Origin: a virus
Virus record (IMG/VR): IMGVR_UViG_3300034072_001035
Coordinates: 1-23,315 of that record
DNA length: 23,315 bases
Direction: 5' to 3' (one strand)
A program made the position numbers and the translations under genes. Shown here piece by piece: positions 4,312 through 19,908 of the stretch; within the stretch, counting starts at the first letter, position 1; each line of letters begins with the position of its first letter. The notes beneath the pieces were generated by a model that did not search any database, was not told the origin of the DNA, and saw only the letters and a list, made by a program, of their open reading frames with translations.

Positions 4312-4326
4312 CCTTGCGCGAAGCCT

Positions 4327-4347
4327 CACGGACAGGTGTCCGGGGCG
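4327..4347 (+). promoter_or_regulatory. Late-operon operator candidate, copy 1 (before lysis genes)
   Basis: This 21-base block has the perfect dyad CGGACA-GG-TGTCCG at 4329-4342. The same 21 bases recur at 12077-12097 and 19854-19874. It lies in the 69-base gap between the Mor-like gene and the endolysin gene, centred about 45 bases before the endolysin ATG. No clear -10 or -35 hexamer is visible, which would fit an activator-dependent promoter. Binding by the Mor-like protein is inferred from the Mu precedent. As RNA it could also form a 5-bp hairpin with an AGGT loop. Confidence 0.6.
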
Positions 4348-4380
4348 ATAGACCGGCTCCCAAGCCGTCAAAAGCGGGCC

Positions 4381-5079
4381 ATGACAGGCCCTTCTCAACA
4401 GCTCCCCAGCACTCAGGAAAACACATCAAACGATGTGGCCATCGTGGTGCAGGCCTACAGCCCGCGCTATCGCAAGGCGGTGCTGCACGTGCTCGGCATC
4501 GAGGGCGGGCATGTCAACGATCCGGTCGACCGTGGCGGCGAGACAAAGTTCGGCATTTCGCTGCGCTTCCTGAAGGCGGAAGGCGCAATTGACGAAGACG
4601 GCGACGGCCTCGCTGACTTCGATCTGGATTTCGACGGCGATATCGACGGTACCGACATTCGCGCGCTGACGATCGGCGATGCGATCTTCCTCTATCATCG
4701 CTGCTTCTGGCTACGCCTCCAGGCCGAGACCTTCCCGCTGCCGATCGGCGAGATGCTGTTCGACCAGGCGGTGAACGGTGGCCTTGTGGCGGCACGCAAG
4801 CTGCTGCAGCGGGCAATCAATTCCTGCATCCTGCTGATGCCGGCCAGTAAGACGCGGATCGCGCTGCTGAAGGTTGACGGCGTGATCGGCAATGCCACGC
4901 GCCATGCCATGCTTGAGGTCATCCAGTGGCCGAACCTTGGCCTGGCGGCGCTGGTGACAGCCTACCGCGATGCCGCGCGCGAGCGATATCGCGCGATCGC
5001 GCGCCAGCTGCCGAGCCAGCGCAAGTATCTCAATGGCTGGCTGGCGCGCGCCGACAAGCTCGGAAAGGGCTTGTCATGA
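4381..5079 (+). CDS. Endolysin, GH108-type N-acetylmuramidase
   Basis: 232 aa. The GH108 (formerly DUF847) signature is clear: EGGHVNDPVDRGGETKFGIS (residues 41-60), where the first Glu (E41) is the expected catalytic acid. An acidic insert at 71-92 (DEDGDG and DLDFDGDIDG, then TDIRAL) resembles dockerin/EF-hand calcium loops. The C-terminal half (KVDGVIGNATR, about 164-174) is the peptidoglycan-binding segment usual for the family. It would cleave the glycan backbone of host murein. No signal peptide or SAR helix is visible, so release should need a holin. The ATG at 4381 is chosen because the longer start (GTG 4336) lies inside the repeated operator. The stop overlaps the inner spanin start. 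Confidence 0.9.
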   Translation: MTGPSQQLPSTQENTSNDVAIVVQAYSPRYRKAVLHVLGIEGGHVNDPVDRGGETKFGISLRFLKAEGAIDEDGDGLADFDLDFDGDIDGTDIRALTIGDAIFLYHRCFWLRLQAETFPLPIGEMLFDQAVNGGLVAARKLLQRAINSCILLMPASKTRIALLKVDGVIGNATRHAMLEVIQWPNLGLAALVTAYRDAARERYRAIARQLPSQRKYLNGWLARADKLGKGLS

Positions 5080-5705
5080 GCGGGTTTGGCGTGGGCGCCG
5101 CCTGGTCCCTCCTGAAGCTGCTGGGCGCGCCGATCGGCGCGGTGCTCAAGTGGCTGTTCGCCGACTGGCGCAATCTCATGATCACGGTTCTAGCGCTTGA
5201 CCTGTGCAACCTGGCGTTCCGCGTTGCGCCGAGACTGCGCGACGAGATCGCTGCGGTCACCAAGCAGCGTGATGCCGTGCGCGGCACCGTCGCTAACCTG
5301 CGCGAAGAAGCGCGACAGGCCGCGATCCGGCAGCAGGCGAACCTGCAGCGCGTGGGCGCCGCCCACGAATCCATCAACCGGGAGAACGTGAGTGCGTTGC
5401 AATTGGAAGTGGCGGCATTGCGCCACCGCGCTGAGCTTCTTTCTGGCCGCTTGCGGACAGGCGAAGGTGGAGCCCATCCCGGCAGCGCCGCTGGAGCTGG
5501 TCTGTCCGGCACCGTTCCGGCCCGCACCGGAATTGCTGAAGCGTCCGCTGATCAAGGATTTCCTGCAGCCACTGGAAACACCTGCCCAGTCGCCAGTGGG
5601 GCAATGAGCATCCAGGAGCGGCTGATTGCCAGCGAGCAGGCCTATCAGCTCGATCGGCTGATCGACGCCGTGGTCGCCTCGTCACAGGTGAGCACTGCAC
5701 CATGA
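5076..5705 (+). CDS. Inner-membrane spanin (Rz-like)
   Basis: 209 aa. A hydrophobic helix at about 33-50 (NLMITVLALDLCNLAFRV), preceded by a weaker hydrophobic stretch, should anchor it in the inner membrane. Residues about 53-127 form a long charged coiled coil (LRDEIAAVTKQRDAVRG, then LQLEVAALRHRAELLSGRL). This is the Rz build: a cytoplasmic membrane anchor with a periplasmic coiled coil that bridges to an outer-membrane lipoprotein and fuses the two membranes at lysis. The C-terminal third is Gly/Ala/Pro-rich and partly constrained by the outer spanin gene nested within it (5392-5607). The call rests on architecture and position, since spanins diverge too far for sequence recognition. It starts at an ATGA overlap with the endolysin gene. 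Confidence 0.8.
   Translation: MSGFGVGAAWSLLKLLGAPIGAVLKWLFADWRNLMITVLALDLCNLAFRVAPRLRDEIAAVTKQRDAVRGTVANLREEARQAAIRQQANLQRVGAAHESINRENVSALQLEVAALRHRAELLSGRLRTGEGGAHPGSAAGAGLSGTVPARTGIAEASADQGFPAATGNTCPVASGAMSIQERLIASEQAYQLDRLIDAVVASSQVSTAP
5392..5607 (+). CDS. Outer-membrane spanin lipoprotein (Rz1-like), nested in Rz frame
   Basis: 71 aa, lying wholly inside the inner spanin gene in the +1 frame, the lambda Rz/Rz1 arrangement. It starts at GTG 5392 with GGGAG at 5380-5384. A short basic N-terminus and hydrophobic core end in a lipobox, LAAC (residues 18-21), so Cys21 should be lipidated and the protein sorted to the outer membrane. The mature part is about 51 residues with 11 prolines (EPIPAAP, CPAPFRPAP), the typical Rz1 composition. 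Lipobox, proline content, own ribosome site and nested position together make chance unlikely. Confidence 0.85.
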   Translation: MRCNWKWRHCATALSFFLAACGQAKVEPIPAAPLELVCPAPFRPAPELLKRPLIKDFLQPLETPAQSPVGQ

Positions 5706-6181
5706 TCGAGCCAGCGGTTTCCATCAAGCAACTGGCCGCGTTCTACGGTCCGTGGGCGATGTCGGTCCTGGCGGCGGCGATCGGTGAACCGCGCCTGACG
5801 GCGCACGCCGCGCCGGGGATCGTGGTGCATATCGACAGCCTGGCTGTGCCACTGCTGCAGGGCGTGCTGGCGCTGGTTGGTGTCATCATGGCCCGCCCGC
5901 TGGCACCGCGCCGCGAGACCGAAGTGGGCTGGCTGCGCTTTGGCCTGGTCACTGCGATCATGGCGATCGTCGCCGTGATCTGGGTCGGGCAATCGCATCC
6001 CGGGCCGCTGCTGACTTTCGTGGTTTCACTTGGCCTGGGCTTCTCCGGCTATTCGCTGATCGAGTTCGCCGGGCGCGAGATCGAAGGCATGATCAAGCGC
6101 CTGATCGGGCTGTCCACCGGCACCACGCCGGGCAGTGCCGGCACTGGCGGCAACTCCAAGCAGACGGGGACAGACCAATGA
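5702..6181 (+). CDS. Multi-spanning membrane protein, holin candidate
   Basis: 159 aa with three clear hydrophobic helices: about 47-64 (LAVPLLQGVLALVGVIMA), 80-96 (FGLVTAIMAIVAVIWVG) and 103-121 (LLTFVVSLGLGFSGYSLI), plus a weaker one near 11-28. The C-terminus is polar and Gly/Thr-rich. Its position right after the endolysin and spanins, and the lack of a secretion signal on the endolysin, make a holin the simplest role: timed pores in the inner membrane. It is longer than many holins and I cannot name its family. The start overlaps the spanin stop (ATGA) and the stop overlaps the next gene. Confidence 0.65.
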   Translation: MIEPAVSIKQLAAFYGPWAMSVLAAAIGEPRLTAHAAPGIVVHIDSLAVPLLQGVLALVGVIMARPLAPRRETEVGWLRFGLVTAIMAIVAVIWVGQSHPGPLLTFVVSLGLGFSGYSLIEFAGREIEGMIKRLIGLSTGTTPGSAGTGGNSKQTGTDQ

Positions 6182-6519
6182 CCGGCAGTTGGCTGGAATG
6201 GGCCATCATCATCTTCATCGTGTTCTCGATCGGCACCGTGGTGTGGCGTGGCGGCGCGGCCAATCCGGAAGGGACCGGCAAGCTGCGCATAACGGTGAAC
6301 CAGTTGCGCGGTGACGTTTCCGTCATTTCGCAGCGGGTCGGCCATCTCGAAACGGAAGTGGCCGAGCTGAAGGATGAAGCTGCAACCGCCAAGGATATCC
6401 AGCGGATCGAGCAGCTGATCGATGAACGCACCGCCGCGCAGAAAAACCTGATCGAGCGTCAGGCACACCAGCTCGACCGGATCGAGCGGCTCATTCTTGC
6501 CAAGGGGCTAGGGCATTGA
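6178..6519 (+). CDS. DUF2730-type protein (Mu gp25-like)
   Basis: 113 aa. One N-terminal membrane helix (WAIIIFIVFSIGTVVW, about 8-23) is followed by a coiled coil over most of the rest (LRGDVSVISQRVGHLETEVAELKDE, broken here only by numbering, then IQRIEQLIDERTAAQ). Membrane helix plus coiled coil just before the gp26/gp27/terminase genes is the position and build of Mu gp25 (DUF2730). Its role in Mu is not established. A second spanin-like role could be argued from the architecture alone, but a spanin pair is already present. Confidence 0.7.
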   Translation: MTGSWLEWAIIIFIVFSIGTVVWRGGAANPEGTGKLRITVNQLRGDVSVISQRVGHLETEVAELKDEAATAKDIQRIEQLIDERTAAQKNLIERQAHQLDRIERLILAKGLGH

Positions 6520-6809
6520 CCGACATTGTAACTGAAGACGCCCGCCTGTGGACGCTCCGTGAGCTTCAGAAGCAGGTTGACGGTCGCCTGAACGAGATCC
6601 TGATCCGTGGGATTCTCGACAAGAAGTACGGCATCAACCGCGATCGCGATTGGGTGGTGACGCAACTGCGCAAGCTGGAAATGCTGGGCGTGATCGAGCT
6701 GATCCCGACCGGCACGGTGCTCGTGGCGAAGATCACAGCGTTGGGCCGCGACTTTCTGGACGAGCGCGTGGTGGTCGAAGGCATCACGCTGCCTTCCGAG
6801 GCGCGGTAA
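6516..6809 (+). CDS. Mu gp26-like small winged-helix protein
   Basis: 97 aa starting at TTG 6516, which overlaps the previous stop (TTGA); no other in-frame start exists until codon 56, so the rare start is well supported. The protein alternates helices and strands (LWTLRELQKQVDGRLNEI, DRDWVVTQLRKLEMLGVIEL, then a hairpin around PTGTVLVAKIT), a winged-helix pattern. Mu-like phages carry such a protein between gp25 and gp27, sometimes annotated as a VpaChn25_0724-type phage protein. The exact function is unknown. Its place in the packaging block suggests a DNA-handling or structural accessory role. Confidence 0.7.
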   Translation: MTDIVTEDARLWTLRELQKQVDGRLNEILIRGILDKKYGINRDRDWVVTQLRKLEMLGVIELIPTGTVLVAKITALGRDFLDERVVVEGITLPSEAR

Positions 6810-6810
6810 C

Positions 6811-7398
6811 ATGAGCGGGGCTGATGAAGCCGCTCAGAACCGGCGCGAGGGGCGCGGTCGGCTGTCGTCGATCGACCAGCTGCCGGACGAGGCCGAACAG
6901 GATGTAATCTGGGCGCTGGAGCAGCTGCGCGAGCGCAAGCTGCCGCAGAACGCGATCCTGATGGAGTTCAACGAGCGGCTTGCCGACAAGGGTATCCCGC
7001 CGATCTCCAAATCTGCCTGGTCGCGCTATGCCGTGCGCAAGGCCATCCAGTTCCGCAAGCTTGACGAAGTGCAGCGCATGTCGGGCGAGCTGGTCAACTC
7101 GCTGGGCACTGATGGGCCGGACCAAGTGACCGTGGCCGTGGCCGAAATGCTCAAGACGGCGATGTTCCAGCTGCTGGAAGGCGGCGAGGTTTCGACCAAG
7201 GGCATCATGGAACTGAGCCGCGCGCTGCAATCGGCCGTCTCTGCCCAGAAGGGTTCGGACGAGTACCGCCGCCAGCTGGAGGCGCGCGTGAGTGCGCAGA
7301 TGGCCAAGGCTGCCGAGGAAGTGACCGAGAAGGTCAGGAAGGCCGGTGTTTCTGCCGAGACGCTGGCCGAGATCAACCGTGCGCTGGGCGTTGCGTGA
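6811..7398 (+). CDS. DUF3486-type protein (Mu gp27-like, terminase small subunit candidate)
   Basis: 195 aa. The N-terminus carries the family's conserved features: a basic start (NRREGRGRLSSIDQLP), acidic helix (DEAEQDVIWALEQLRERKLPQ), a helix-turn-helix-like segment (LADKGIPPISKSAWSRYAV) and then long helices to the C-terminus. DUF3486 proteins sit directly before the terminase large subunit in Mu-like phages and are thought to be the DNA-recognising small terminase. Such a protein would bind the phage pac end and dock the motor. A short extra ORF separates it from the large subunit here. Confidence 0.82.
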   Translation: MSGADEAAQNRREGRGRLSSIDQLPDEAEQDVIWALEQLRERKLPQNAILMEFNERLADKGIPPISKSAWSRYAVRKAIQFRKLDEVQRMSGELVNSLGTDGPDQVTVAVAEMLKTAMFQLLEGGEVSTKGIMELSRALQSAVSAQKGSDEYRRQLEARVSAQMAKAAEEVTEKVRKAGVSAETLAEINRALGVA

Positions 7399-7574
7399 TG
7401 TCACAGATTGATCTGATCGATGCAGTTGCGTTTGCGTTTGCCGCACCCTTGGGCCCGACTGTGATCGGCTGCGACCTATCGTCTGGCCGCGATGTGTGCG
7501 TTGAAGCTGAGTTCGATAGCTCCGGACGTCTTATGGCGGTCCGCGAACTACCGCTGGAGGTCCCAGCAACCTGA
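7398..7574 (+). CDS. Small hypothetical protein between terminase genes
   Basis: 58 aa. The ATG at 7398 overlaps the gp27-like stop (TGATG), and its TGA overlaps the terminase ATG at 7574 (TGATG). This exact fit at both ends is the main evidence that it is real. The product begins SQIDLIDAVAFAFAAPLGP and has two strand-like segments (VCVEAEFDSSGRLMAVRELP). No known motif or membrane helix is visible. It uses slightly more A/T third positions than its neighbours, which may mean separate acquisition. Confidence 0.6.
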   Translation: MSQIDLIDAVAFAFAAPLGPTVIGCDLSSGRDVCVEAEFDSSGRLMAVRELPLEVPAT

Positions 7575-8974
7575 TGGGCAACGCGCGCATCATCCCGGCC
7601 AATCCGGACGCGATCTTCCTGCCTTACCAGGGCAAGTGGATTGCTGACGATGCGCGGCTGAAGCTGATGGAGAAGAGCCGCCAGATCGGCATCTCCTGGT
7701 CAACCGCCTATGCCGCCGTGGCGCGCACCGGAAAGGAAGGCGCGCGGCACGATCAATGGGTGAGCAGCCGTGACGACATCCAGGCACGCCTGTTCCTGGA
7801 AGACTGCAAGCTGTTTACCGGCATTCTCGACATGGCGGCGCAGGACCTGGGCGAGCGCATCGTCGACGAGGCAACCAAGCAGACCGCCTATGTCCTGAAC
7901 TTTGCCACGGGCAAGCGCATCAATTCGATGTCGTCCAATCCCGATGCGCAGGCGGGCAAACGCGGCGGGCGCATCCTCGACGAATTCGCGCTGCATCCCG
8001 ATCCGCGCAAGCTGTGGGCGATTGCCTATCCGGGTATCACCTGGGGCGGCAACATGGAGCTGATAAGCACGCACCGCGGCAGCCACAACTTCTTCAACCA
8101 GCTGGTCCGCGAGATCAAAGAACAGGGCAACCCGAAGAAGATCAGCCTGCACACGGTGACGCTGCAGGACGCGCTTGATCAGGGCTTCCTCTACAAGCTG
8201 CAGCGTTCGCTTCCTGACGACGCCGAACAGCAGGCAATGACCGAGGCCGATTACTTCGACTTCGTCAAAGGTGGCTGCGCGGACGAGGAAAGCTTCCTCC
8301 AGGAGTACATGTGTCAGCCCGCCGACGATGACGCGGCGTTCCTCGAATATGACCTGATCGCGTCGGCCGAGTACGCCGCAGGGACCGACTGGGGCCGGAT
8401 CGAGGGTGGCACGCTGTTCGCAGGCGTGGACATTGGTCGCAAGCAGGACCTGACCGTGCTGTGGATCGTCGAGCTGCTCGGCGACGTGCTCTACACCCGC
8501 CACGTCGAGACCATGCGCAACATGACCAAGGGCGACCAGGAGAAGATCCTGTGGCCTTGGTTCGAACGCTGCCAGCGGGTTTGCATCGACAGCACCGGCC
8601 TTGGCATTGGCTGGGCCGACGACGCGCAAAAGGCGTTCGGCACCTATCGCGTCGAAGGGGTGAACTTCTCCGGCCGGGTCAAGGAAGAGCTGGCCTATCC
8701 GTTGCGGGCGAAGATGGAAGATCGGCGCCTGCGCATCCCCTACGACAAGAACATCCGCGCCGATCTGCGCGCCGTGACGAAAACCACCACCGCTGCCGGC
8801 AACATCCGCTTCACGGCCGAGCGCACCAAGGATGGGCACTCCGACCGCTTCTGGGCGCTGGCTCTGGCGATCCATGCGGCCGGCAATGGCCAAGGCCCGG
8901 CATGGAAGCCGCTGATCGAACCAAAGCGGCCCGGCGCGCCCCGCACTCTCGATGATGACTGGATCCCCGCATGA
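7574..8974 (+). CDS. Terminase large subunit (Mu gp28-like)
   Basis: 466 aa, a usual length for this family. The ATPase half has a variant Walker A (SRQIGISWS, 35-43) and Walker B (GGRILDEFAL, with D136-E137). The nuclease half has RNase H-fold acidic residues: D286 in AGVDIGRKQDL, D339 in CIDSTGLGIG and D424 in KDGHSDRFWALALA. This is the packaging motor that pumps DNA into the prohead and cuts host-joined phage DNA by the headful mechanism of Mu-like phages. GGAGG upstream and a TGATG overlap fix the start at 7574. The stop overlaps the portal gene start (ATGA), so motor and portal are translationally linked. Confidence 0.92.
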   Translation: MGNARIIPANPDAIFLPYQGKWIADDARLKLMEKSRQIGISWSTAYAAVARTGKEGARHDQWVSSRDDIQARLFLEDCKLFTGILDMAAQDLGERIVDEATKQTAYVLNFATGKRINSMSSNPDAQAGKRGGRILDEFALHPDPRKLWAIAYPGITWGGNMELISTHRGSHNFFNQLVREIKEQGNPKKISLHTVTLQDALDQGFLYKLQRSLPDDAEQQAMTEADYFDFVKGGCADEESFLQEYMCQPADDDAAFLEYDLIASAEYAAGTDWGRIEGGTLFAGVDIGRKQDLTVLWIVELLGDVLYTRHVETMRNMTKGDQEKILWPWFERCQRVCIDSTGLGIGWADDAQKAFGTYRVEGVNFSGRVKEELAYPLRAKMEDRRLRIPYDKNIRADLRAVTKTTTAAGNIRFTAERTKDGHSDRFWALALAIHAAGNGQGPAWKPLIEPKRPGAPRTLDDDWIPA

Positions 8975-11076: not shown

Positions 11077-11081
11077 GAGCA

Positions 11082-11828: not shown

Positions 11829-11834
11829 CATTTG

Positions 11835-11865
11835 CCGTCAGGGCGCTGTGAGAGGCCCCTGACGG
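11835..11865 (+). terminator. Terminator-like hairpin after protease gene
   Basis: CCGTCAGGG (11835-11843) and CCCTGACGG (11857-11865) are perfect 9-bp arms with a 13-base loop, beginning seven bases after the protease stop. No T-run follows directly, but a second hairpin with TTCTT (11889-11911) lies just downstream. The position suggests an end for the packaging and protease operon. It is a prediction from structure only. Confidence 0.5.
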
Positions 11866-12076
11866 TCCTGCCCCCGGTAAAATGGCCGGGCCTGCCTTCT
11901 TAGGCCTTCTTAAACCGCGAAATGGGGCAATTGGTTGCCCACTCTCGGCAACGATCTGCACCTGTTGGCGGTGCACGGTTGTCAGAAGCCGGTTTGATCG
12001 TTTAGACCCGCCGTCGGTGGCAGGCGATGCCTGATCCACATCGGCTGCCACTTCACCCGACATTCTCGCGCGCCGC

Positions 12077-12097
12077 CACGGACAGGTGTCCGGGGCG
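12077..12097 (+). promoter_or_regulatory. Late-operon operator candidate, copy 2 (before major capsid gene)
   Basis: The 21 bases are identical to 4327-4347, with the dyad at 12079-12092, about 77 bases before the capsid ATG. It shares three further 5' bases (CGC) with copy 3. It follows the hairpins at 11835-12051, so a terminator-then-promoter arrangement is likely. In Mu one of the C-activated late promoters (PI) also drives head genes. The binding protein is inferred, not shown. Confidence 0.6.
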
Positions 12098-12162
12098 AAG
12101 GCGCGCGCAAGCTCCTGCCACATGGCCCGAGATTTTGGTCTCAGGCTTGAGGAGCGACGGGT

Positions 12163-13479
12163 ATGTCCGAACTGAATTTGACGCAGCTGCGCGAGAAGAT
12201 GGCTGCAAAGCAGGAGCAACTTGGCAAGGTGTTTGCCGAAGCGCTGATCAGCGATGCTGGCGAAAAGAAGTACGACTTCAACCGGGTCACCGTCCTGGGC
12301 GCAGACGTAAAGGGTTCGATCGCTGTGGCCGAGAAGGTCAAGCAGATGAACGACGAGCTCAACGAACTGGGCGAGAAGGCCGACAAGCTCGATGCTGCGG
12401 AAAAGGCGGCGATGCAGCATGCCGAACGGTCGAAGGCTATTCGCGACCTCCCACTGCCGGGCGGCAAGGGCAACCACCAGGATGAGCGTCAGCGCTTCAA
12501 GTCGCTTGGCGAGATGCTGGCCGAGCACAAGGATTTCATCGACTATGTCGGCCGCAAGGCCGCCGGCGGCATCGATCTTTCGTTCCCGGACCTGGCGCTT
12601 TCGGACCTGCTTGCCAGCGCAGACCGCTTTGCCACGCTCGGCGCCAAGACGCTGATGACCACTTCGGCGGGCTTTGCTCCGGAAAGCATCCGTTTGCCGG
12701 GCTTTGTCGAGGCGGCAACCCGTCCGATCCAGATGCTCGACATCATGCCCATGTTCCCGACCAGTCAGTCGTCGATCAAGTACATGGAAGAAACCACCCG
12801 TACCCACTCGGCTGCAGAGACGGCCGAGGGTGGCGACTACGCAGAAAGCGCGTTCGCGTTCACTGAGCGCAACGTCTCGGTCGCCAAGATTACCGACAGC
12901 CTGCCCGTCACTGACGAGCAGCTGGAGGACGTGGCCATGATGCAAGGCTACATCGCGACGCGCCTGCCTTTCGGCGTGCGCCAGCGGATGGATCGCCAGG
13001 TGCTGATCGGCGATGGCTCGTCGCCGAACATGCGCGGTCTCAAGAACGTGTCGGGCATCCAGACGCAGGCGCGCGGTGCCGACCCGGTTCCCGACACTTT
13101 CTTCAAGGCGATGACCAAGATCCGCGTGACGGGGCGCGCGATCCCGACGCACCACATCATGCACCCGACCGACTGGCAGGGCGTCCGCCTGCTGCGCACG
13201 GCTGACGGCGTCTACATCTGGGGCTCACCGGCCGAGAGCGGTCCGGAGCGACTGTGGGGCCTGCAGGTCGTACAGAACGATGCCGACAGCGCGGGCACCG
13301 GCTACACCGGTTCGTTCCAGCCCGCCTGGTGCGGTATCTTCGAACGTCGCGGTGTTGAGCTGGCCATCGGCTATGTCGGCAGCCAGTTCACCCAGGGTAA
13401 GCGCACGGTGCGCGCGGATGCCCGCGCCGCAGCGGTCTGGATGCGCCCTGCCGCGTTCTGCGCAAACACCGGTCTCTGA
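12163..13479 (+). CDS. HK97-fold major capsid protein
   Basis: 438 aa. Residues 1 to about 110 are charged and helical (REKMAAKQEQLGKVFAEAL, then KQMNDELNELGEKADKLDA), typical of the scaffolding delta domain that the adjacent protease removes. The shell-forming part follows: TLMTTSAGFAPESIRLPGF, strands around MEETTRTHSAAETAEGG, the VSVAKITDSLPVTDEQLED helix-strand, LIGDGSSPNMRGLKN (a very typical HK97 capsid segment), and HHIMHPTDWQGVRLLRTADG. It forms the icosahedral head. GAGGAG before 12163 supports the start. An internal GSPAESGPERLWGLQVV segment also fits the family. It is the first gene after the second operator copy, as expected for a highly expressed late gene. Confidence 0.93.
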   Translation: MSELNLTQLREKMAAKQEQLGKVFAEALISDAGEKKYDFNRVTVLGADVKGSIAVAEKVKQMNDELNELGEKADKLDAAEKAAMQHAERSKAIRDLPLPGGKGNHQDERQRFKSLGEMLAEHKDFIDYVGRKAAGGIDLSFPDLALSDLLASADRFATLGAKTLMTTSAGFAPESIRLPGFVEAATRPIQMLDIMPMFPTSQSSIKYMEETTRTHSAAETAEGGDYAESAFAFTERNVSVAKITDSLPVTDEQLEDVAMMQGYIATRLPFGVRQRMDRQVLIGDGSSPNMRGLKNVSGIQTQARGADPVPDTFFKAMTKIRVTGRAIPTHHIMHPTDWQGVRLLRTADGVYIWGSPAESGPERLWGLQVVQNDADSAGTGYTGSFQPAWCGIFERRGVELAIGYVGSQFTQGKRTVRADARAAAVWMRPAAFCANTGL

Positions 13480-13610
13480 TGCAGGCCCAAAGGGGCGTGG
13501 CTGACATCCGGGTCGGCGCGCCTCTGGCCATCACCGTGAGTGGGCGGATCGGCGGGACCTGCAGCGGCAGTAATCGCCTGATCCAGGGCCGCTCGCCCGC
13601 CGCCGGGTAG
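13479..13610 (+). CDS. Possible 43-aa ORF after capsid gene
   Basis: The ATG at 13479 overlaps the capsid stop by one base (TGATG) and the frame runs to a TAG at 13608. The product starts MQAQRGVADIRVGAPLAITV and has no recognisable motif. Evidence for: the coupled start and the otherwise unexplained 162-base gap. Evidence against: no clear Shine-Dalgarno and an ordinary composition for GC-rich non-coding DNA. An inverted repeat (GCCCGC/GCGGGC) sits near its end. I regard it as unproven. Confidence 0.3.
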   Translation: MQAQRGVADIRVGAPLAITVSGRIGGTCSGSNRLIQGRSPAAG

Positions 13611-13641
13611 AGCGGGCAAACTCTTCAGAAGGATTGGTCCG

Positions 13642-14190
13642 ATGGGCAAGATGAGTGGCGCGGGTTCGCGCATCATTTCGGTGGCGCTGGGGGCAGCGCT
13701 GCTTGGCGTCAATTCTCGCGTGCTGGGCGATACGGCGATGGCCAACGGGGCCACCACCGAAGTCACCAGCTTCGCTGCGCAGCCGGACGTGCCGCGCAAC
13801 CTGACAGTGACCGGCAACGGCGCGGCGGTGGCGGGCGACGTGGTCATCGTCGGCACCAATGCGGGTGGCGAGACGATCACGGAGACGATCGTCGCTGCCG
13901 GTGCCGCCACTGTGGTTGGAAACAAGGCGTTCAAGACGGTCACCTCGATCACGCTGCCGGCCTACGTGTCGGCGGGAACCGAGCGCATCCGCGTGGGCAC
14001 CGGGGCCAAGCTTGGCCTGCTGCACAAGCTTTCCCGCAACAGCGTGGTCGCCGCCTTCCTGGCGAACGTGCGCGAGACCACCGCGCCTACGGTCGCGTTC
14101 TCGGCCAGCGCGCTGGAGAGCAACACGATCACTCTCAACTCTGCGCTCAACGGGACGGCGGTGATCGTCGACCTGTACGAGACGCTCTGA
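13642..14190 (+). CDS. Candidate head decoration or minor structural protein
   Basis: 182 aa, starting after AGAAGGA. Most of it is predicted beta: NGATTEVTSFAAQPDVPRN, LTVTGNGAAVAGDVVIVGTN, GGETITETIVAAGAATVVG and a C-terminal strand NGTAVIVDLYETL. This Thr/Val/Gly-rich pattern with DVPRNLTVTG is common in phage structural proteins that coat the capsid or form short fibres. Its place right after the capsid gene suggests a head decoration (cement) protein. No catalytic motif is visible. The N-terminus (IISVALGAALLG) is mildly hydrophobic, but I do not read it as a signal peptide. Confidence 0.6.
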   Translation: MGKMSGAGSRIISVALGAALLGVNSRVLGDTAMANGATTEVTSFAAQPDVPRNLTVTGNGAAVAGDVVIVGTNAGGETITETIVAAGAATVVGNKAFKTVTSITLPAYVSAGTERIRVGTGAKLGLLHKLSRNSVVAAFLANVRETTAPTVAFSASALESNTITLNSALNGTAVIVDLYETL

Positions 14191-14207
14191 CCGAAAGGCA
14201 CCCTGAC

Positions 14208-14669
14208 ATGGGCAACGTGATTGCAAGGCAGCGGCTGTTCCTGAACGCCGAAAAAACGAAGCTCGTGGGCGAAGGCGATACGGAGGGCGCGTTTCTCTAT
14301 GTCGCGCCCGGCGATGAAATCCCCGAGGACGCGCACGAGAAGTTCGGCCTGGAGGACGGTGCGCTGCCCGACTTCAAGCCTGCCGATCCCGGCGAGGTCG
14401 CTGGCAAGGTGCCGAACGTTGCCCCGCCACCGGGCCCGAAGGAAAAGGCGGCGCAGCGCGCGGCCAAGGCTGAGGCAAGCGCGAAAGCCAGGGAGCAGGC
14501 CAAGGTTGGCACCCAGGCCAAGGCCGATAAGGGCGCTTCGATCACCAAGGAAGCCGGTCCTGGCAAGAACAAGGAAGCTGCGCCTGGTCCTGACAAGTCG
14601 GACGGCAAGCCTGCCGATGGCGCTGGCGGCGATGCTGGCGGCGCTCCTGGCGAAGGCGGGCAGGCCTAA
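14208..14669 (+). CDS. Hypothetical protein with disordered Ala/Lys/Gly-rich tail
   Basis: 153 aa. The first 60 residues look folded (ARQRLFLNAEKTKLVGEGD and EGAFLYVAPGDEIPED). From about residue 65 to the end the sequence is low-complexity: PPPGPKEKAAQRAAKAEAS, then GPGKNKEAAPGPDKSDG and a Gly/Ala run. Such tails are expected to be disordered. Small proteins of this type sit between capsid and connector genes in many siphophages with no known function. GAAAGG upstream supports the start. The tail's repeats are a consequence of composition, not of exact DNA repeats. Confidence 0.65.
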   Translation: MGNVIARQRLFLNAEKTKLVGEGDTEGAFLYVAPGDEIPEDAHEKFGLEDGALPDFKPADPGEVAGKVPNVAPPPGPKEKAAQRAAKAEASAKAREQAKVGTQAKADKGASITKEAGPGKNKEAAPGPDKSDGKPADGAGGDAGGAPGEGGQA

Positions 14670-14672
14670 GCC

Positions 14673-15239
14673 ATGGCACTGATCGACCGGGTCAAGGAAC
14701 GCACGGGCAGCGACCTTTCCGATACCGAGCTGCAAGCGATGATCGACGGCATTGCCGACGAGATGGAGCTGCGGTTCGGTCCGGCAGGGCCGGTGCTGGT
14801 GCTGTCCGGCGACCCGGCCGATCCGGCGACGCAATATCGCCGCACGCTGCGCCTGGTGCGCGCGATCGACACCACCGCGGATATCGAGATCGTCGAGATC
14901 GATCCCGGCAACAGCGGTGATGCCAGCGCCCGCGTGACGCTGGCTGCGGACGATTATCGGGTGCTCGATGGCGGGCGCACGCTGCAGCGCCTGATCAGCG
15001 GCACGAACGGGCGCGAGTTCTGGGCGCCGATGGTCGAGCTTACCTACACGCCCAAGGGCGAGCAGGCGGCGCGCGACGAGGCGACGATCCAGCTGATGCA
15101 GCTGCAGCTTTCCTATCGCGGTGGCCTGAAGTCCGAACGGGCGGGTGACTACAGCTTCACCCTTTCCGGCGACATGGGTGCAGACCGCGAGAGGATCTTC
15201 GAAGGGCTCGCGCAGCGGCGCGGGATGGTGATGGCATGA
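14673..15239 (+). CDS. Head-tail connector (adaptor) protein, gp6-like
   Basis: 188 aa. The N-terminal helix (ALIDRVKERTGSDLSDTEL) followed by an acidic second helix (QAMIDGIADEMELRFG) and then a strand domain (VTLAADDYRVLDGGRTLQRL) matches the phage head-tail adaptor family (gp6/phiE125 gp8-like). It forms a ring under the portal and helps close the DNA-filled head. A C-terminal helix (EATIQLMQLQLSYRGG) and a short tail (YSFTLSGD) complete the family pattern. In most siphophages the head-closure gene follows at once; here about 2.3 kb of small genes comes between them. Confidence 0.75.
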   Translation: MALIDRVKERTGSDLSDTELQAMIDGIADEMELRFGPAGPVLVLSGDPADPATQYRRTLRLVRAIDTTADIEIVEIDPGNSGDASARVTLAADDYRVLDGGRTLQRLISGTNGREFWAPMVELTYTPKGEQAARDEATIQLMQLQLSYRGGLKSERAGDYSFTLSGDMGADRERIFEGLAQRRGMVMA

Positions 15240-15505
15240 TCCTCAAAGGTATCGGCAAGATCGATGGCGACGGATGGAAGGACACCACCCGAAAGGGCGA
15301 GGTGATTTTTGCGTACAAGCCGACGCTTCCAAAGCCCTATGCGGAAGGGCAGCACGAGCGTGTTGGCAACATCGGGTGGACCGCCAGCGAGAAGCAGTAC
15401 GACTTCGTGCCGGCATCGATCTGGGAAATCATCCGGCTGCTTCCTGCAATCCTGCGTGATGCGCACCATCGCCGCCGTTACTACGCTTTCAGGAAGCCTT
15501 GCTGA
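15236..15505 (+). CDS. Small hypothetical protein (accessory block)
   Basis: 89 aa, starting at an ATGA overlap with the connector gene. Not recognised. It starts with strands (ILKGIGKIDGDGWKD and RKGEVIFAYKPTLP), continues with a Trp-containing segment (VGNIGWTASEKQYDFVP) and ends in a basic helix (LRDAHHRRRYYAFRK). No Cys pair, membrane helix or catalytic motif is visible. It opens the run of accessory genes between connector and head closure. Confidence 0.6.
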   Translation: MILKGIGKIDGDGWKDTTRKGEVIFAYKPTLPKPYAEGQHERVGNIGWTASEKQYDFVPASIWEIIRLLPAILRDAHHRRRYYAFRKPC

Positions 15506-15765
15506 TGCGCGGCTTCTTTCCTCGCATCGCGCTGGCAGCAGCATTCGCCTTGGGCATGACGCCAACAGGCGCGCTGGCCGAAAAAGGGCTCGCCGTAGAG
15601 GTCGCGCCTCGTGCCACGACGCGCCGGCAGAAGGCGCGTCGGCTTGTGCATAGCGGGTGGCGGCGTCGGCGCAGCCGTGGCCCTGCCTCGCATCCGCGCC
15701 GCCGTTCGAACCGGCTGCATGTCAGTCGCCGCGTGCGCCGGCGCAATCGCAGGCGGGCGGCATGA
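15505..15765 (+). CDS. Possible secreted arginine-rich small protein
   Basis: 86 aa. The ATG at 15505 overlaps the previous stop (TGATG) and the TGA overlaps the next ATG (ATGA), so the frame fits the operon exactly. Residues 1-25 look like a Sec signal peptide (MRGFFPRIALAAAFALG, cleavage probably after ALA). The remaining 61 residues contain 22 arginines, in clusters such as WRRRRSR and VRRRNRRR. Arg-rich reading frames are often shadows in GC-rich DNA, and the overlapping +1 frame gives a hydrophobic Gly/Ala-rich sequence (GLCIAGGGVGAAVALP). A frameshifted membrane protein is therefore an alternative. The frame is visible; the product is uncertain. Confidence 0.45.
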   Translation: MRGFFPRIALAAAFALGMTPTGALAEKGLAVEVAPRATTRRQKARRLVHSGWRRRRSRGPASHPRRRSNRLHVSRRVRRRNRRRAA

Positions 15766-16040
15766 CGCGGGCTCGCTCTCCCAAGCTCGTGCGCAAGCAG
15801 CTGAAGGTGACGCCTGAACTTCAGGCGTTCGCCCAAGAGCACTATCCGATCCCGCAAGGTGCGAAAATCTGGCAGGCGTTCGGTTGGAGCGATGCCAAGG
15901 GCAACCGCCGCCGCATGCGCCTGTACTTCGACGATGGGCTGCAACTCGACGCCAGCTTTAGCGCGCCGATCGACGGCATGCAGGCGATCGGCAACTTCAG
16001 CCTGAAGTTCAACCTGGTCACCGAAAGGAAGGCAGCGTGA
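15762..16040 (+). CDS. Small hypothetical protein (accessory block)
   Basis: 92 aa starting at an ATGA overlap. A basic N-terminus (TRARSPKLVRKQLKV) leads into a compact mixed domain: helix TPELQAFAQEHY, then strands RMRLYFDDGLQLDASF and NFSLKFNLVTE. No family is recognised. An upstream in-frame GTG at 15657 would add a Pro/Ala-rich extension overlapping the previous gene; the shorter form fits the operon spacing better. Cytoplasmic by appearance. Confidence 0.6.
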   Translation: MTRARSPKLVRKQLKVTPELQAFAQEHYPIPQGAKIWQAFGWSDAKGNRRRMRLYFDDGLQLDASFSAPIDGMQAIGNFSLKFNLVTERKAA

Positions 16041-16252
16041 TCCTGACGCTCTTCCTCGTCTGGCTTGCTGGCCTGTGCATGGGGTTGCTGATGACCTGGC
16101 TGAAAGTGCGCAAGCCGATGGACCCGATCGGCCGGGCAATCACCCTGATGTTCGGCGTGGTCTTCTCGATCTTCTGGCCGGTGGTCGTTGTCTACTGCGT
16201 GGGCATGGGATGCTGGTGCCTTGCGCGTTGGCCAGAGGAGATCGAGCCGTGA
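16037..16252 (+). CDS. Two-span small membrane protein
   Basis: 71 aa starting at GTG 16037, which overlaps the previous stop (GTGA) and is preceded by GGAAGG. Two hydrophobic helices (ILTLFLVWLAGLCMGLLMTWL and ITLMFGVVFSIFWPVVVVYC) are joined by a basic loop (KVRKPMD), giving a hairpin with both ends probably in the periplasm. The C-terminus is short and acidic. The function is unknown. It is not next to the lysis genes, so I do not call it a holin, though an antiholin or superinfection-exclusion role is possible. Confidence 0.65.
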   Translation: MILTLFLVWLAGLCMGLLMTWLKVRKPMDPIGRAITLMFGVVFSIFWPVVVVYCVGMGCWCLARWPEEIEP

Positions 16253-16890
16253 GCCTGGCCGATCCCGTCAACGGGCCGATGCCAGGCCGGGTGCTGTGCA
16301 AGGATTGCGAGCACGTCAGCGGTGGCACGTGCGTGCGGCCGATCGGGCTGCACTTCGACGCCGGCATCAACGGCTTTCGCAAGCGGCTGCACGTGAGCGC
16401 GGCGCTGGAGCGCAGCAGGACCAGGACACTGACCAAGCGCGCCTGTTGCGGCCCGGATGGGCAGTTCTTTGAGCCCAAGGGTTCGCTCGATCCAATCGTG
16501 GCATTGGAAGCTGAGCCTAACGACAGTGAATTCGACATTCCGGCCGATCCAGTAGCCACCGTGATGGACGCGCTGTGGCACAACTCGCCCGAGGTCATTG
16601 CGTGGGCGCGGAAGTCACTAGCCATGGGAAGAGACCCGATCATGACCGACGAGCAGATCAAGCACATGGTCAATCGCTTCCTGAGCTGGAAGCTTCCTTC
16701 GGACTTTGCGCCTGACGGTGGGATCACTTTCCATCGCGGGCCCGTTCAGGGTGCGAGCAACTCGCCCGTCGGGACCAACCTCCTTTCCGCCGTCCAGGCC
16801 GAGGCGATGATCCGCCACATGCTCGTCGGCGTCCCGGAGCACCGCCAGCATGACACGATCGCGGACAGCGACGGGGGTGACGGAGCGTGA
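16249..16890 (+). CDS. Two-part hypothetical protein with Cys-rich N-terminus
   Basis: 213 aa from GTG 16249 (overlaps the previous stop; AGGAG at 16236-16240). The N-terminal part has a Cys cluster, C17-x2-C20-x7-C28, and a later CC pair (66-67), suggesting metal binding. The C-terminal part (from Met132, ATG 16642) begins MTDEQIKHMVNRFLSWKLP and continues with PDGGITFHRG and VGTNLLSAVQAEAMIRHML. I associate this segment with stand-alone small proteins in alphaproteobacterial phages, so the gene looks like a fusion, or it may make a second product from the internal ATG. The function of both parts is unknown. Confidence 0.6.
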   Translation: MSLADPVNGPMPGRVLCKDCEHVSGGTCVRPIGLHFDAGINGFRKRLHVSAALERSRTRTLTKRACCGPDGQFFEPKGSLDPIVALEAEPNDSEFDIPADPVATVMDALWHNSPEVIAWARKSLAMGRDPIMTDEQIKHMVNRFLSWKLPSDFAPDGGITFHRGPVQGASNSPVGTNLLSAVQAEAMIRHMLVGVPEHRQHDTIADSDGGDGA

Positions 16891-17030
16891 GCGCTGACAT
16901 GATCCTGCTGAGCCTGCTTGTGGCAGCTGCGCTGCTGCTGGCGCCGTTCACCTCGACCGGTCGTGGCGGACATAGACCGCAGGTTCCACCCGACTCTCCG
17001 AAATCACCGCCACCCCCGCAGAGGAAGTAG
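16887..17030 (+). CDS. 47-aa single-span proline-rich protein
   Basis: It starts at GTG 16887 (GTGA overlap, GGGGGTGA upstream); the ATG at 16899 is an alternative. A hydrophobic helix (MILLSLLVAAALLLAPF, residues 5-21) precedes a basic, proline-rich tail (RPQVPPDSPKSPPPPQRK). There is no lipobox cysteine, so it is not an outer-spanin copy, although the build is reminiscent of one. It was missed by a simple length cut-off but fits exactly between neighbours. Function unknown. Confidence 0.55.
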   Translation: MSADMILLSLLVAAALLLAPFTSTGRGGHRPQVPPDSPKSPPPPQRK

Positions 17031-17031
17031 C

Positions 17032-17337
17032 GTGAACCTCGCCAATGTTTCCCCGATGCTCCGCGCCCTGGTCGAGTGGCGCGACGATCTGGCCAAGGCG
17101 GCAGAAGCGCGCGGGGACGAGATGTTCATGGGCGTGCCTGATGCATGGTTCGAGGAGCCGCACTGGTTCTGCACCAAGGGCCATGTCTCTCGCGTCTACC
17201 TGCGATCGGAAAGCGGCTCGCGGTGCATGGCCTGCCATGAGGGAACCATTCTTGGCCCAAGGATGACCGAGGCGGACTTTGCACAGGTGCTTGGCGGGCT
17301 TGCGCTGAAGGTGGCGCAGGAAGGCTCGCTGTCATGA
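17032..17337 (+). CDS. Small hypothetical protein with zinc-ribbon-like cysteines
   Basis: 101 aa from GTG 17032, with GAGGAAG just upstream. Helix one (MLRALVEWRDDLAKAAEARG) is followed by a Cys/His set: C47 and H51 in WFCTKGHVSR, then C65-x2-C68-H69 in RCMACHEG. This spacing could hold one zinc ion. A last helix (EADFAQVLGGLALKVA) follows. Such small ribbon proteins often bind nucleic acid or act as adaptors, but no family is named here. The stop overlaps the next start (ATGA). Confidence 0.6.
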   Translation: MNLANVSPMLRALVEWRDDLAKAAEARGDEMFMGVPDAWFEEPHWFCTKGHVSRVYLRSESGSRCMACHEGTILGPRMTEADFAQVLGGLALKVAQEGSLS

Positions 17338-17537
17338 GCCGCGGGACAACCTTCGTCACACTCGACATGCACGAAGCGGCGCTGTGTGCCATGGCGTTGG
17401 CATACGAGCTGAAGGCGCTTCGCCAGATGGCGGCTCGGCAGCAGATAAGTCCTGACCTGCAGGCGGCGCTTGATCGTTCCGAGGCCCTTTACCAGCGGTT
17501 GGCCAAACGGCTCGCGTCGAAGGGGATCAAGGTATGA
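17334..17537 (+). CDS. Small helical hypothetical protein
   Basis: 67 aa from an ATGA overlap, with GGAAGG upstream. It is almost entirely helical (MHEAALCAMALAYELKALRQMAAR, here a single long helix, then LQAALDRSEALYQRLAKRLAS), suggesting a coiled-coil hairpin or dimer. No motif is recognised. It is the last gene of the accessory block; its stop overlaps the head-closure gene. Confidence 0.6.
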   Translation: MSRGTTFVTLDMHEAALCAMALAYELKALRQMAARQQISPDLQAALDRSEALYQRLAKRLASKGIKV

Positions 17538-17881
17538 TCTCCGGACGGCTGACCATGCGGGCGCAGATCGAGCGCGAGACGGCAACCGGCAGCGATGCCT
17601 GGGGCGGGCCGAACGCGGGCACGTTCGCGCCGCTGGGGAATCCGGTGGCGTGCTTTGTCTACTCGCAGCAAGCGAGCCAGCTGATCGACGGGCAGAAGCA
17701 GGCGCAGATTGAAGTGACGCGCGCATTGTTCGCGCTGGGCACGGACGTGCGGCCGGGCGACCGCCTGGCGAGCGTGACGGATCGCAAGGGCGTGGTGCTG
17801 CATGCCGGGCCGCTGAAGGTCGAAGGTCCGGTGCAGTTCAAGCATACGCACCTTGAAGCGACGTTGGAGAGGATCGGCTGA
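17534..17881 (+). CDS. Head closure (head-tail joining) protein
   Basis: 115 aa. The opening GRLTMRAQIERETATGSDAW resembles the start of SPP1 gp16/HK97 gp7-type head-closure proteins (PF05521), and the beta-barrel strands follow: CFVYSQQ, TRALFALGTDVRPGDRL, and a C-terminal HTHLEATLERIG strand typical of the family. It forms the stopper ring below the connector and docks the tail. It starts at an ATGA overlap and ends in a TGATG-like overlap with the next gene. Confidence 0.75.
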   Translation: MISGRLTMRAQIERETATGSDAWGGPNAGTFAPLGNPVACFVYSQQASQLIDGQKQAQIEVTRALFALGTDVRPGDRLASVTDRKGVVLHAGPLKVEGPVQFKHTHLEATLERIG

Positions 17882-18111
17882 TGTTCCGCTTCATCCGTTC
17901 ACTGTTCGCGTGGAAGGTCTGCGGCATCAAGGGATGCTGGCAGTATTCCGAGAACACGGTCACCGGCCAGCGTGCTGCCGATCTGGTTAGCAGCAGGCTT
18001 TATGGGCCGGTCGATTGGGCATGGCTGGATGCCGGGCGCGGCCATCCCCGGATCAATGGGCGGCCGGCGTGGCGCAGTGCCGAAGGTCAGATCAGCGGGA
18101 GGTACTGCTGA
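17881..18111 (+). CDS. Small hypothetical protein
   Basis: 76 aa; GGAGAGGA lies just before the ATG. Not recognised. It has a hydrophobic, basic N-terminus (MFRFIRSLFAWKVC) with four cysteines in all (KVCGIKGCW and the C-terminal residue among them), a Trp-rich middle (GPVDWAWLDAGRGHP) and a basic end. It separates the head closure and gp10-like genes, which are normally adjacent, so it is probably another accessory insertion. Confidence 0.55.
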   Translation: MFRFIRSLFAWKVCGIKGCWQYSENTVTGQRAADLVSSRLYGPVDWAWLDAGRGHPRINGRPAWRSAEGQISGRYC

Positions 18112-18713
18112 TGGCGCAAAGCTCTCTCCGCTGGAACGGCAAGGCCGTGAAGGCACGCATGCTTGCGGCGACGATCAGGGGCGTCAACGACACGATGGCG
18201 GCCGCGGCAAACCATGCCAAGGCGAACCACGACTGGGACAATGACACCGGCAACCTTAACCGCGGCATCGTGATCCTGGGCAACGCTGCGCCCGACGAGA
18301 AGGGTGTGAGCGGCACCTGGGGCGTGGTCGACGTGGAGTATGCGCTGATCCACGAGCTGGGCGGCGTGATCGAGCCGAAGAATTCCAAGTTCCTGGCAAT
18401 TCCGGTGACAGACCTTGCGCGCAAGGCAGGGTCACCGCGCAACCTGGTTGGCCTTGCCTATGTGCAGAGCATCAAGGGCCAGCCCATGCTGGTCGATGAT
18501 GAAAGCGGCGAGGTCCACTACATCCTCAAGCGCAGCGTGACGATCCCGGCGCGGCCATACCTGCGCCCGGCAGCCGATGCGAAGTACCCCGAGCTGGGGG
18601 CAAATATCCGCAAGGCCTGGGACAGGCTGAAGCCGGGTGAAGCTGGCGGTGCGCCCAGCGGCTCGCCTGGTAGTTCGGGGGGCGGATCGGCGGGAGGTGA
18701 CGGCGATGCCTGA
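18111..18713 (+). CDS. HK97 gp10-like tail completion protein
   Basis: 200 aa, GGGAGG at 18097-18102. The family pattern is visible: an N-terminal helix (ATIRGVNDTMAAAANHAKA), DTGNLNRGIVI, a beta stretch with VVDVEYALIHELGG (the conserved Y-A-x-x-x-E-x-G element) and the C-terminal PARPYLRPAAD, characteristic of HK97 gp10-like proteins. These sit between head closure and tail terminator and are needed for head-tail joining. The last 25 residues are Gly/Ser-rich and disordered. The stop overlaps the next gene by 8 bases. Confidence 0.82.
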   Translation: MAQSSLRWNGKAVKARMLAATIRGVNDTMAAAANHAKANHDWDNDTGNLNRGIVILGNAAPDEKGVSGTWGVVDVEYALIHELGGVIEPKNSKFLAIPVTDLARKAGSPRNLVGLAYVQSIKGQPMLVDDESGEVHYILKRSVTIPARPYLRPAADAKYPELGANIRKAWDRLKPGEAGGAPSGSPGSSGGGSAGGDGDA

Positions 18714-19137
18714 CGTTCCTGCCGATCCGATTGGCGCGATCGTGGCGATCCTGCTGGCCGATGCCGACGTGGCGGCGCGGGTTGGCACGCGCGGGTTCGG
18801 TGGCGAGCTGCCTGCGGCCGAGACCGATGACATGCCGCGCGATGCCTTCGTGGTGAAGGCGTCGGGCGGCGCTGCCGTGAACGGGCGCGGCTTTGCCGAG
18901 TACGATACCCAGCGGGTGGACCTGTACGCTTTCGGAAAGACGCCAGCGCTGGCCGCATCGCTGGCCGATCTGTGTGCGCTGAAGCTGCGGCGGGCGCGGT
19001 CACAGGTGGCGGATGGCACGTTCGTTCACTGGATTCAGAGCGCCGGGGGATTTTCGAGTGGGCGGGAGCCGGTGACCGATTGGCCTCGCGCGTGGCGATC
19101 GTTCCAGATCCAGTACGCGCTGGTCAAAGTAAGCTGA
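18706..19137 (+). CDS. Tail terminator-like protein (DUF3168/gp11-like)
   Basis: 143 aa from ATG 18706, with GGGAGG upstream; the longer upstream frame overlaps the gp10-like gene and is rejected. DPIGAIVAILLADADVAARVG is the typical first helix, FVVKASGGAAV a strand, TQRVDLYAFGKTPALAASLAD the characteristic strand-turn-helix, and a final strand FQIQYALVKV closes the fold. This pattern, in this position, matches tail-terminator/tail-completion proteins that cap the tail tube and meet the head-closure ring. Confidence 0.75.
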   Translation: MPDVPADPIGAIVAILLADADVAARVGTRGFGGELPAAETDDMPRDAFVVKASGGAAVNGRGFAEYDTQRVDLYAFGKTPALAASLADLCALKLRRARSQVADGTFVHWIQSAGGFSSGREPVTDWPRAWRSFQIQYALVKVS

Positions 19138-19150
19138 AGAGGAGGTTTAG

Positions 19151-19747
19151 ATGGAACCGTATGAAATCGTAGGACAGCCGTTGACGCTGTGGCTGGCTCC
19201 GGTCGGGACGGCGTTCCCGGATATCGATGCAGCGCCGGGCAGCCCGTGGGTGCTGGTTGGCACCAGCGGCGACCGCAGCGAGACCGAGGAAGGCGTGACG
19301 GTGACGCACAGCCAGACGCTCAACAAGGTTCGCGCAGGTGGCTCGGTCGGCGCGGTCAAGGTATTCCGGCCTGAAGAAGACCTGATGTTCCGCGTGACGC
19401 TGATGGATGTCAGCCTGGAGCAGTACAAGCTGGCGGTGAACGGCAATGCGCTGACCACCGTGGCGGCGGGCTCGGGTACGCCGGGCACCAAGTCCATGGG
19501 ATTGAGCCGCGGCAAGGACGTGACGCTCTATGCGCTGATCGCACGCGGCGTTTCGCCATATGACCCAACTTTTGCCGCGCAGTATCAAGTGCCGCGCTGC
19601 TACGTTTCTGGCAGCCCGGCGATCGCCTACCGGAAGGGCCAGCCTGCCGGCATCGAGCTGACGTTCGAGGCGCTGGAAGACCTGGAAGCGGTGACCGAGG
19701 ACGAGCGCTTCGGCAGCCTGATCGCGCAGCACCAGGCGGCGCTCTGA
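19151..19747 (+). CDS. Major tail tube protein
   Basis: 198 aa with a strong ribosome site (AGAGGAGG ending 5 bases before the ATG). It is beta-rich: PLTLWLAPVGTAFP, WVLVGTSGDRSETEEGVTV, VFRPEEDLMFRVTLMDVSLEQY, and a C-terminal IELTFEALEDLEAV. The order strand, EEGVTV, then DLMFRVTLMDVSLEQY helix is usual for siphophage tube proteins that stack as hexamers to make the tail. Its position after the terminator gene and before the tail chaperone and tape measure supports this. A 161-base gap with hairpins and the third operator copy follows it. Confidence 0.82.
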   Translation: MEPYEIVGQPLTLWLAPVGTAFPDIDAAPGSPWVLVGTSGDRSETEEGVTVTHSQTLNKVRAGGSVGAVKVFRPEEDLMFRVTLMDVSLEQYKLAVNGNALTTVAAGSGTPGTKSMGLSRGKDVTLYALIARGVSPYDPTFAAQYQVPRCYVSGSPAIAYRKGQPAGIELTFEALEDLEAVTEDERFGSLIAQHQAAL

Positions 19748-19756
19748 CGAGCATCC

Positions 19757-19783
19757 CAGCGGCGGCGTTGCGCGACGCCGCTG
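19757..19783 (+). repeat. Inverted repeat after tail tube gene
   Basis: CAGCGGCG (19757-19764) and CGCCGCTG (19776-19783) are perfect 8-bp arms with an 11-base loop, ten bases after the tail tube stop. It may cooperate with the hairpin at 19800-19827 in ending transcription or in protecting the 3' end of an abundant mRNA. Confidence 0.45.
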
Positions 19784-19799
19784 CATGACATAAGAGGCT

Positions 19800-19827
19800 G
19801 GAAGGCGCACCGAATGCAGCGCCTTCC
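19800..19827 (+). terminator. Terminator-like hairpin before tail chaperone operon
   Basis: GGAAGGCGC (19800-19808) and GCGCCTTCC (19819-19827) are perfect 9-bp arms with a 10-base loop, followed by a pyrimidine run (CGTCTCTC) rather than a pure T-run. It lies between the tail tube gene and the third operator copy, where one transcription unit would end and the next begin. Function is predicted from structure. Confidence 0.5.
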
Positions 19828-19853
19828 CGTCTCTCTGCAATCTCACATGTCGC

Positions 19854-19874
19854 CACGGACAGGTGTCCGGGGCG
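19854..19874 (+). promoter_or_regulatory. Late-operon operator candidate, copy 3 (before tail chaperone)
   Basis: The 21 bases are identical to the copies at 4327-4347 and 12077-12097; the dyad is at 19856-19869. Its centre lies about 46 bases before the tail chaperone ATG, nearly the same distance as copy 1 to the endolysin ATG. It follows the hairpin at 19800-19827. Together the three copies mark lysis, head and tail units. Confidence 0.6.
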
Positions 19875-19908
19875 CAGCTGGCGTTGGCGCGCGGGCATAT
19901 CGGCCTGC

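Follow-up and report, generated by a model that had tools for sequence, protein, structure and literature searches.

The window, by which we mean the whole stretch of DNA analysed here, is a 23.3 kb IMG/VR record with the gene content of a transposable siphophage, and its genes follow one another in the order Mu-type transposase (its end), MuB, GemA, a Mor-like protein, endolysin, terminase, portal, protease, capsid and tail. The genes and hairpins that frame the three gaps considered here are as follows:

3922–4311, plus strand, predicted Mor-like late transcription activator, 129 aa (phrog_836)
4381–5079, plus strand, endolysin (GH108; PF05838, PF09374), which opens the lysis-terminase-portal-protease operon
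11834–11866, plus strand, strong terminator-like hairpin just 3' of the protease gene and before copy 2 of the repeated block (folding energy)
12163–13479, plus strand, major capsid protein of HK97 type (phrog_10, E 4e-41)
19757–19834, plus strand, two strong terminator-like hairpins 3' of the major tail protein gene and before copy 3 (folding energy)
19909–20436, plus strand, gene after copy 3, named tail assembly chaperone solely for its position ahead of the tape measure gene (synteny with L007–L009)

The hairpin behind the protease gene folds with -26 kcal/mol over 11829–11880 (z -3.4), and the two behind the major tail protein gene with -21.9 and -25.9 kcal/mol (z -2.7 and -3.7). The gene at 19909–20436, flanked by those for the major tail protein and the tape measure, has no PHROG match and is named by none of the profile libraries searched. 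This ORF and the next (20433–20693) overlap by ATGA (window 20427–20440); in tail chaperone genes the frameshift often lies at such an overlap. Past the endolysin, a small nested ORF in another frame, at 5392–5607, has a lipoprotein-like start (LAACG) and, by its sequence, looks like a member of an Rz/Rz1 spanin pair.

A block repeated in three late gaps

A scan of the window sequence finds the 21-mer CACGGACAGGTGTCCGGGGCG three times, always on the plus strand, and no other 21-mer occurs three times; across 30 order-4 Markov simulations of the window, words present three times reached no more than 11–14 bases. The 14-base dyad within it, CGGACAGGTGTCCG, lies at 4329–4342, 12079–12092 and 19856–19869 with no mismatches, and a dyad search that tolerated up to two mismatches returned a single further match in the window, at 23227. 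The three copies, which occupy the gaps 4312–4380, 11829–12162 and 19748–19908, are predicted to be:

4327–4347, plus strand, copy 1, dyad for the activator at the lysis/packaging promoter (sequence and relatives' gaps)
12077–12097, plus strand, copy 2, dyad for the activator at the head promoter (sequence, relatives' gaps and a type-blind search)
19854–19874, plus strand, copy 3, dyad for the activator at the tail promoter (sequence, relatives' gaps and a type-blind search)

A first-pass annotation had reported an identical block at three places, and its positions were reproduced without a mismatch. It had put the copies in the few non-coding gaps of the window, which is where they lie, with the small correction that more junctions are gapped than it allowed, 13480–13641 being one. 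It had also placed them ahead of the endolysin, major capsid and tail chaperone genes: PF05838 and phrog_10 bear out the first two, and the third name is one of position only. Its near-equal spacing to the next ATG for copies 1 and 3 was measured, from the centre of the dyad, at 45.5 and 46.5 bases. The single Mor/C-type gene that it saw just before copy 1 is the phrog_836 match at 3922–4311, which is the only gene of this kind in the window and ends 15 bases ahead of the block.

The Mor-like protein

The protein encoded at 3922–4311, the sole Mor-profile match in the window, resembles phrog_836, 'late transcriptional activator', over residues 2–128 (E 5.8e-20). Against Pfam Mor (PF08765) it scores 21.8 bits, under the cut-off of 24.9, and 35 of the 40 Mor-like proteins of relatives match that family, with E up to 0.01. 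Compared with Mu Mor itself, its profile gives a probability of 89% and E 2e-6, confined to the C-terminal half. An AlphaFold2 model (pLDDT 82.6) contains a helix-turn-helix, and the residues that covary with the dyad fall on its helix 106–116:

4237–4269, plus strand, stretch that encodes the predicted recognition helix (residues 106–116), in which 107, 108, 110 and 111 covary with the dyad (AlphaFold2 and covariation)

A fold search of the PDB gave no strong match; the helix-turn-helix resembles those of many proteins, including the Mu Mor complex 9l0y (Z 4.7). Class- and order-level genome searches added few close Mor homologues.

Just one match to phrog_836 was found in the window and one in each of 12 relatives (31–67 kb), and a Mu C query found no match in the window. 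Since one Mor/C-type gene per phage was found, the sequences suggest that the cascade probably has one tier, with a single activator switching on all late operons, unlike the succession of Mor and then C in Mu.

Dyads in related phages and host genomes

The closest relatives of the window are the IMG/VR contigs L011–L013 and prophages of Sphingobium, Novosphingobium, Sphingopyxis, Erythrobacter and some Rhizobiales. Both a count of the dyad in host chromosomes and an alignment of the same gaps in related phages had been put forward as checks by the first-pass annotation, and dyads of like layout do recur at the same gaps. In L011–L013 the dyad is present in all three corresponding gaps, its centre flipped or altered (AGGT, ACCT, AACA, AGCG) and its arms and trailing GGGGCG kept; in the prophages the arms vary yet stay paired, as GGAC/GTCC or GGAA/TTCC. 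In 763 kb from 43 distinct phages, the dyad in its strict symmetric form occurs 69 times on the plus strand, every time in one of the three late-operon gaps: gaps 1 and 2 have 34 copies each, and one is in gap 3, which is undersampled in this set as most stretches end before it. Strict matches on the minus strand number seven, six of them full palindromes read backwards. In eight whole host genomes (~33 Mb), dyads with a symmetric fourth base are nearly confined to prophage, so that the chromosomes outside prophage are almost free of them.

In Sphingobium AS12 a symmetric dyad lies at 80928–80945 of contig 16 (G001), ~13 kb past the capsid-gene site of the L018 prophage and beyond the usual distance of a tail site; it is perhaps an additional late promoter.

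Covariation of recognition helix and dyad

Judged by comparison of their sequences, the dyad and the recognition helix of the Mor-like protein encoded just before it vary as a matched set across ~40 related phages. Among distinct proteins that keep R107 and R110, Arg at residue 111 goes with GTCC half-sites in 22 of 22 and Lys, Leu or Met with TTCC in 17 of 17 (39/39 together). The rule was framed on 12 phages, in which GGAC sites accompany R111 with Q, T or A at 108 and GGAA sites accompany K, L or M111 with G108; further phages came from an independent, protein-only search, and in the distinct proteins not seen before the rule held 27 times out of 27 (Fisher p 8e-8, uncorrected for kinship among phages). 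Residue 111 is a better predictor than 108, because L087 and L112 combine G108 with R111 and have GTCC. The recognition helices of L108 and L092 differ solely by T108G and R111K, and their sites read CGGAC/GTCCG and CGGAA/TTCCG, respectively.

Departures from the common helix come with departures in the site. L093 has R110H and CTGAA-N4-TTCAG sites, and L094 and L114 have R107S and GACC half-sites (TCC to ACC). In L114 (K111, S107) the switching base is G, not T, an exception to the residue-111 rule in an altered helix. Two phages with K111, L081 and L083, have mixed sites, GGAC on the left and TTCC on the right.

In a tree built from the N-terminal region of Mor, parsimony requires ~10 changes of site type and ~10 of the residue, which change together; the independent switches on supported branches agree in four of four cases, too few for p<0.05 by a sign test. 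Distal sites, 7–15 kb away and counted by a type-blind search, are of the same type as the proximal one in 33 of 33 second sites and five of five third sites, and with 38 of 38 matching over that distance, a local exchange of the gene end together with its adjacent site is insufficient on its own.

Layout of the predicted promoters

In all three gaps an A/T-rich peak lies 28–31 nt past the last base of the right arm, and the putative -10 elements of the window are:

4369–4374, plus strand, -10-like hexamer CAAAAG of copy 1, 27–32 past the right arm; putative start 4381, the endolysin ATG (leaderless)
12119–12124, plus strand, -10-like hexamer CACATG of copy 2, from sequence; putative start near 12131
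19896–19901, plus strand, -10-like hexamer CATATC of copy 3, found also in L012, L013 and L023; putative start 19908–19909, the ATG of the next gene (leaderless)

All three hexamers are weak matches to the sigma-70 -10 element, and the -35 region is taken up by a conserved GGGCG. If the hexamer at 27–32 is the -10, transcription would start near 39, with the centre of the dyad at about -45.5 and a lysis leader of 0–2 bases. The ATG of the lysis gene lies 38–41 nt past the right arm in 29 of 41 phages (shuffles, mean 2.3 and maximum 10), and the tail gene has a like placement in three of the five phages whose third site was mapped, among them the window. The lysis-gene mRNA is thus probably leaderless, and copies 1 and 3 would be equally far from the ATG because the start codons sit at the putative start of transcription. 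The capsid gene would have a 32-nt leader, with GAGGAG at 12149–12154 ahead of the ATG at 12163, and the capsid genes of relatives likewise have longer predicted leaders than their lysis genes. The downstream layout differs in the first gaps of L028, L033, L113 and L119.

Interpretation and alternatives

The three blocks are, very probably, binding sites for a dimer of the Mor-like activator at the lysis, head and tail late promoters. The protein would be produced at the end of the early operon and would bind each dyad with its centre ~45 bp ahead of the start, where it would substitute for the apparently absent -35 element and recruit the host polymerase, so that all late genes would be switched on in one step. 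Lysis and tail transcripts would begin at, or within two bases of, the ATG and carry no leader, and the capsid transcript would carry one with a ribosome-binding site. That these are late sites bound by the Mor-like protein, as the first-pass annotation had proposed, is supported above all by covariation, and also by confinement to the gaps, spacing, phylogenetic footprinting and near-absence from hosts. Where it spoke of operators, they appear to be sites of an activator and not operators of the repressor type.

An arrangement of this kind is known from Mu, in which Mor occupies a pair of 5-bp repeats, set 6 bp apart and centred at -43.5, in place of a -35 element (PMC4390567), and four late promoters carry related dyads to which C binds (PMC4287176). 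Mu Mor, like the protein here, has 129 aa and a DNA-binding C-terminal part (PMC4390567, PMC4287176). The 16-bp element of Pm, two 5-bp inverted repeats and a 6-bp spacer, has its counterpart here in (C/A)CGGA-N6-TCCGG, and Pm lacks a -35 element and the promoters here seem to lack one, the centre lying at -43.5 in Mu and at about -45.5 from the putative start here. The first-pass annotation had thought the sequence unlike the Mu sites; the letters are indeed different, the site here being GC-rich with an extra conserved GGGGCG after the right arm, but the geometry of 5-bp arms and 6-bp spacer is that of the Mu Mor sites. As at Plys, PI, PP and Pmom of Mu, the dyads of one activator stand before lysis, head and tail operons (PMC4287176). 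In Mu, however, that activator is the second one, C, made from Pm, and Mor serves one middle promoter, whereas here one Mor/C-type gene was found and its product would serve three late promoters directly.

It might be argued that the dyad acts at the RNA level: it would form a tight hairpin, closed by a four-base loop, at either end of a transcript and serve there as a terminator or translational operator. The spacer of four bases and the compensatory arm changes that keep pairing (GGAC/GTCC, GGAA/TTCC, GGTC/GACC) would suit this, as would the T runs behind the palindrome in some distant relatives (L161, L173), but changes in the arms track residues in the recognition helix of a protein that binds DNA, and use of the fixed -10-like element would leave the dyad upstream of the transcript. 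Moreover, copies 1 and 3 fold like shuffles (z +0.7 and -1.0) and have no T run, and separate, stronger hairpins stand before copies 2 and 3; on these grounds of folding we rejected the hairpin, which we regard as very unlikely. The case for the Mor-like protein as the binder rests on sequence comparison, which leaves some room for a host regulator or a phage repressor in its stead; yet the covariation is with the Mor-like helix, symmetric dyads are nearly missing from host chromosomes outside prophages, and a dyad is found behind Mor-like genes class-wide, so this seems still less probable. Least probable of all is that the Mor-like protein binds the dyad and mainly represses or silences, as at a strict operator. 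Evidence of binding does not by itself give the sign of regulation, but a centre near -45.5 with no evident -35 element is the activator layout of Mu Pm (-43.5; PMC4390567, PMC4287176), and the matched profile family is that of a 'late transcriptional activator'.

Beyond activation by the Mor-like protein as such, we consider it reasonably probable that there is a Mor-family recognition code, in which residue 111 with 108 would set the inner base pair of each half-site and 110 and 107 other pairs, combined with repeated switching of all promoters, perhaps to avoid cross-activation of co-resident prophages, and with leaderless lysis and tail mRNAs.

Mor-like genes across the class and in B3-like phages

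In a class-wide set of 24 Mor-like genes picked regardless of sites, a few of them close or repeated copies, 15 have a palindrome no more than 60 nt past the stop codon, compared with 9% of control windows; the core GACA-N2-TGTC lies behind nine of 24, compared with 0.07%. Such GACA-N2-TGTC palindromes follow the Mor-like stop in distant alphaproteobacterial prophages (L160–L183), for example GGGTGACACGTGTCACCC in L182 and CCATGGTGACAGGTGTCACCATGG in L166. Some are trailed by a T run, and in relatives such as L161 and L173, which have one, the palindrome could double as a terminator. Judging by these sequences, a target site immediately after the gene for its activator seems to be a general feature of the Mor-like family in alphaproteobacteria. 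Mor/C-family activators outside enterobacterial Mu thereby gain a defined predicted site and a one-step late switch, and the naturally matched variants of protein and promoter make up a testable lock-and-key set. In L108 and L092, a two-residue difference in the helix goes with matching changes at promoters kilobases apart, which makes the pair well suited to asking how a phage regulator might shift its specificity and still keep late genes expressed, and matched pairs could become orthogonal expression switches in alphaproteobacteria.

The transposable siphophages that resemble B3 (Pseudomonas phage B3 itself, Sinorhizobium phages Aussie and StopSmel, and Mwe-Yong1) have a terminase 72–76% identical to that of the window. 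Aussie, StopSmel and Mwe-Yong1 also have the capsid protein in common with it (62–67%), and Aussie and StopSmel the same gaps, whereas B3 has other capsid genes and an inverted early block. The window dyad was not seen in the gaps or repeats of B3, Mwe-Yong1, Aussie, StopSmel or Lsp-JY19, and in the literature searched, which took in few subscription journals, we found no description of it. A different dyad, CGCA-N2-TGCG followed by G/CATG, precedes the capsid gene in Aussie, StopSmel, Mwe-Yong1 and contig L014 (L008:20970–21130, L009:19270–19430, L007); going by its sequence, it is probably the site of those phages' own Mor-like protein. Two phages deposited as infecting Microcystis (L007, MZ436628) and Leptolyngbya (L010, PP438411) have terminases 72–73% identical to that of the window. 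They are thus close kin of proteobacterial transposable phages, and their cyanobacterial host labels may be worth checking against co-cultured bacteria.
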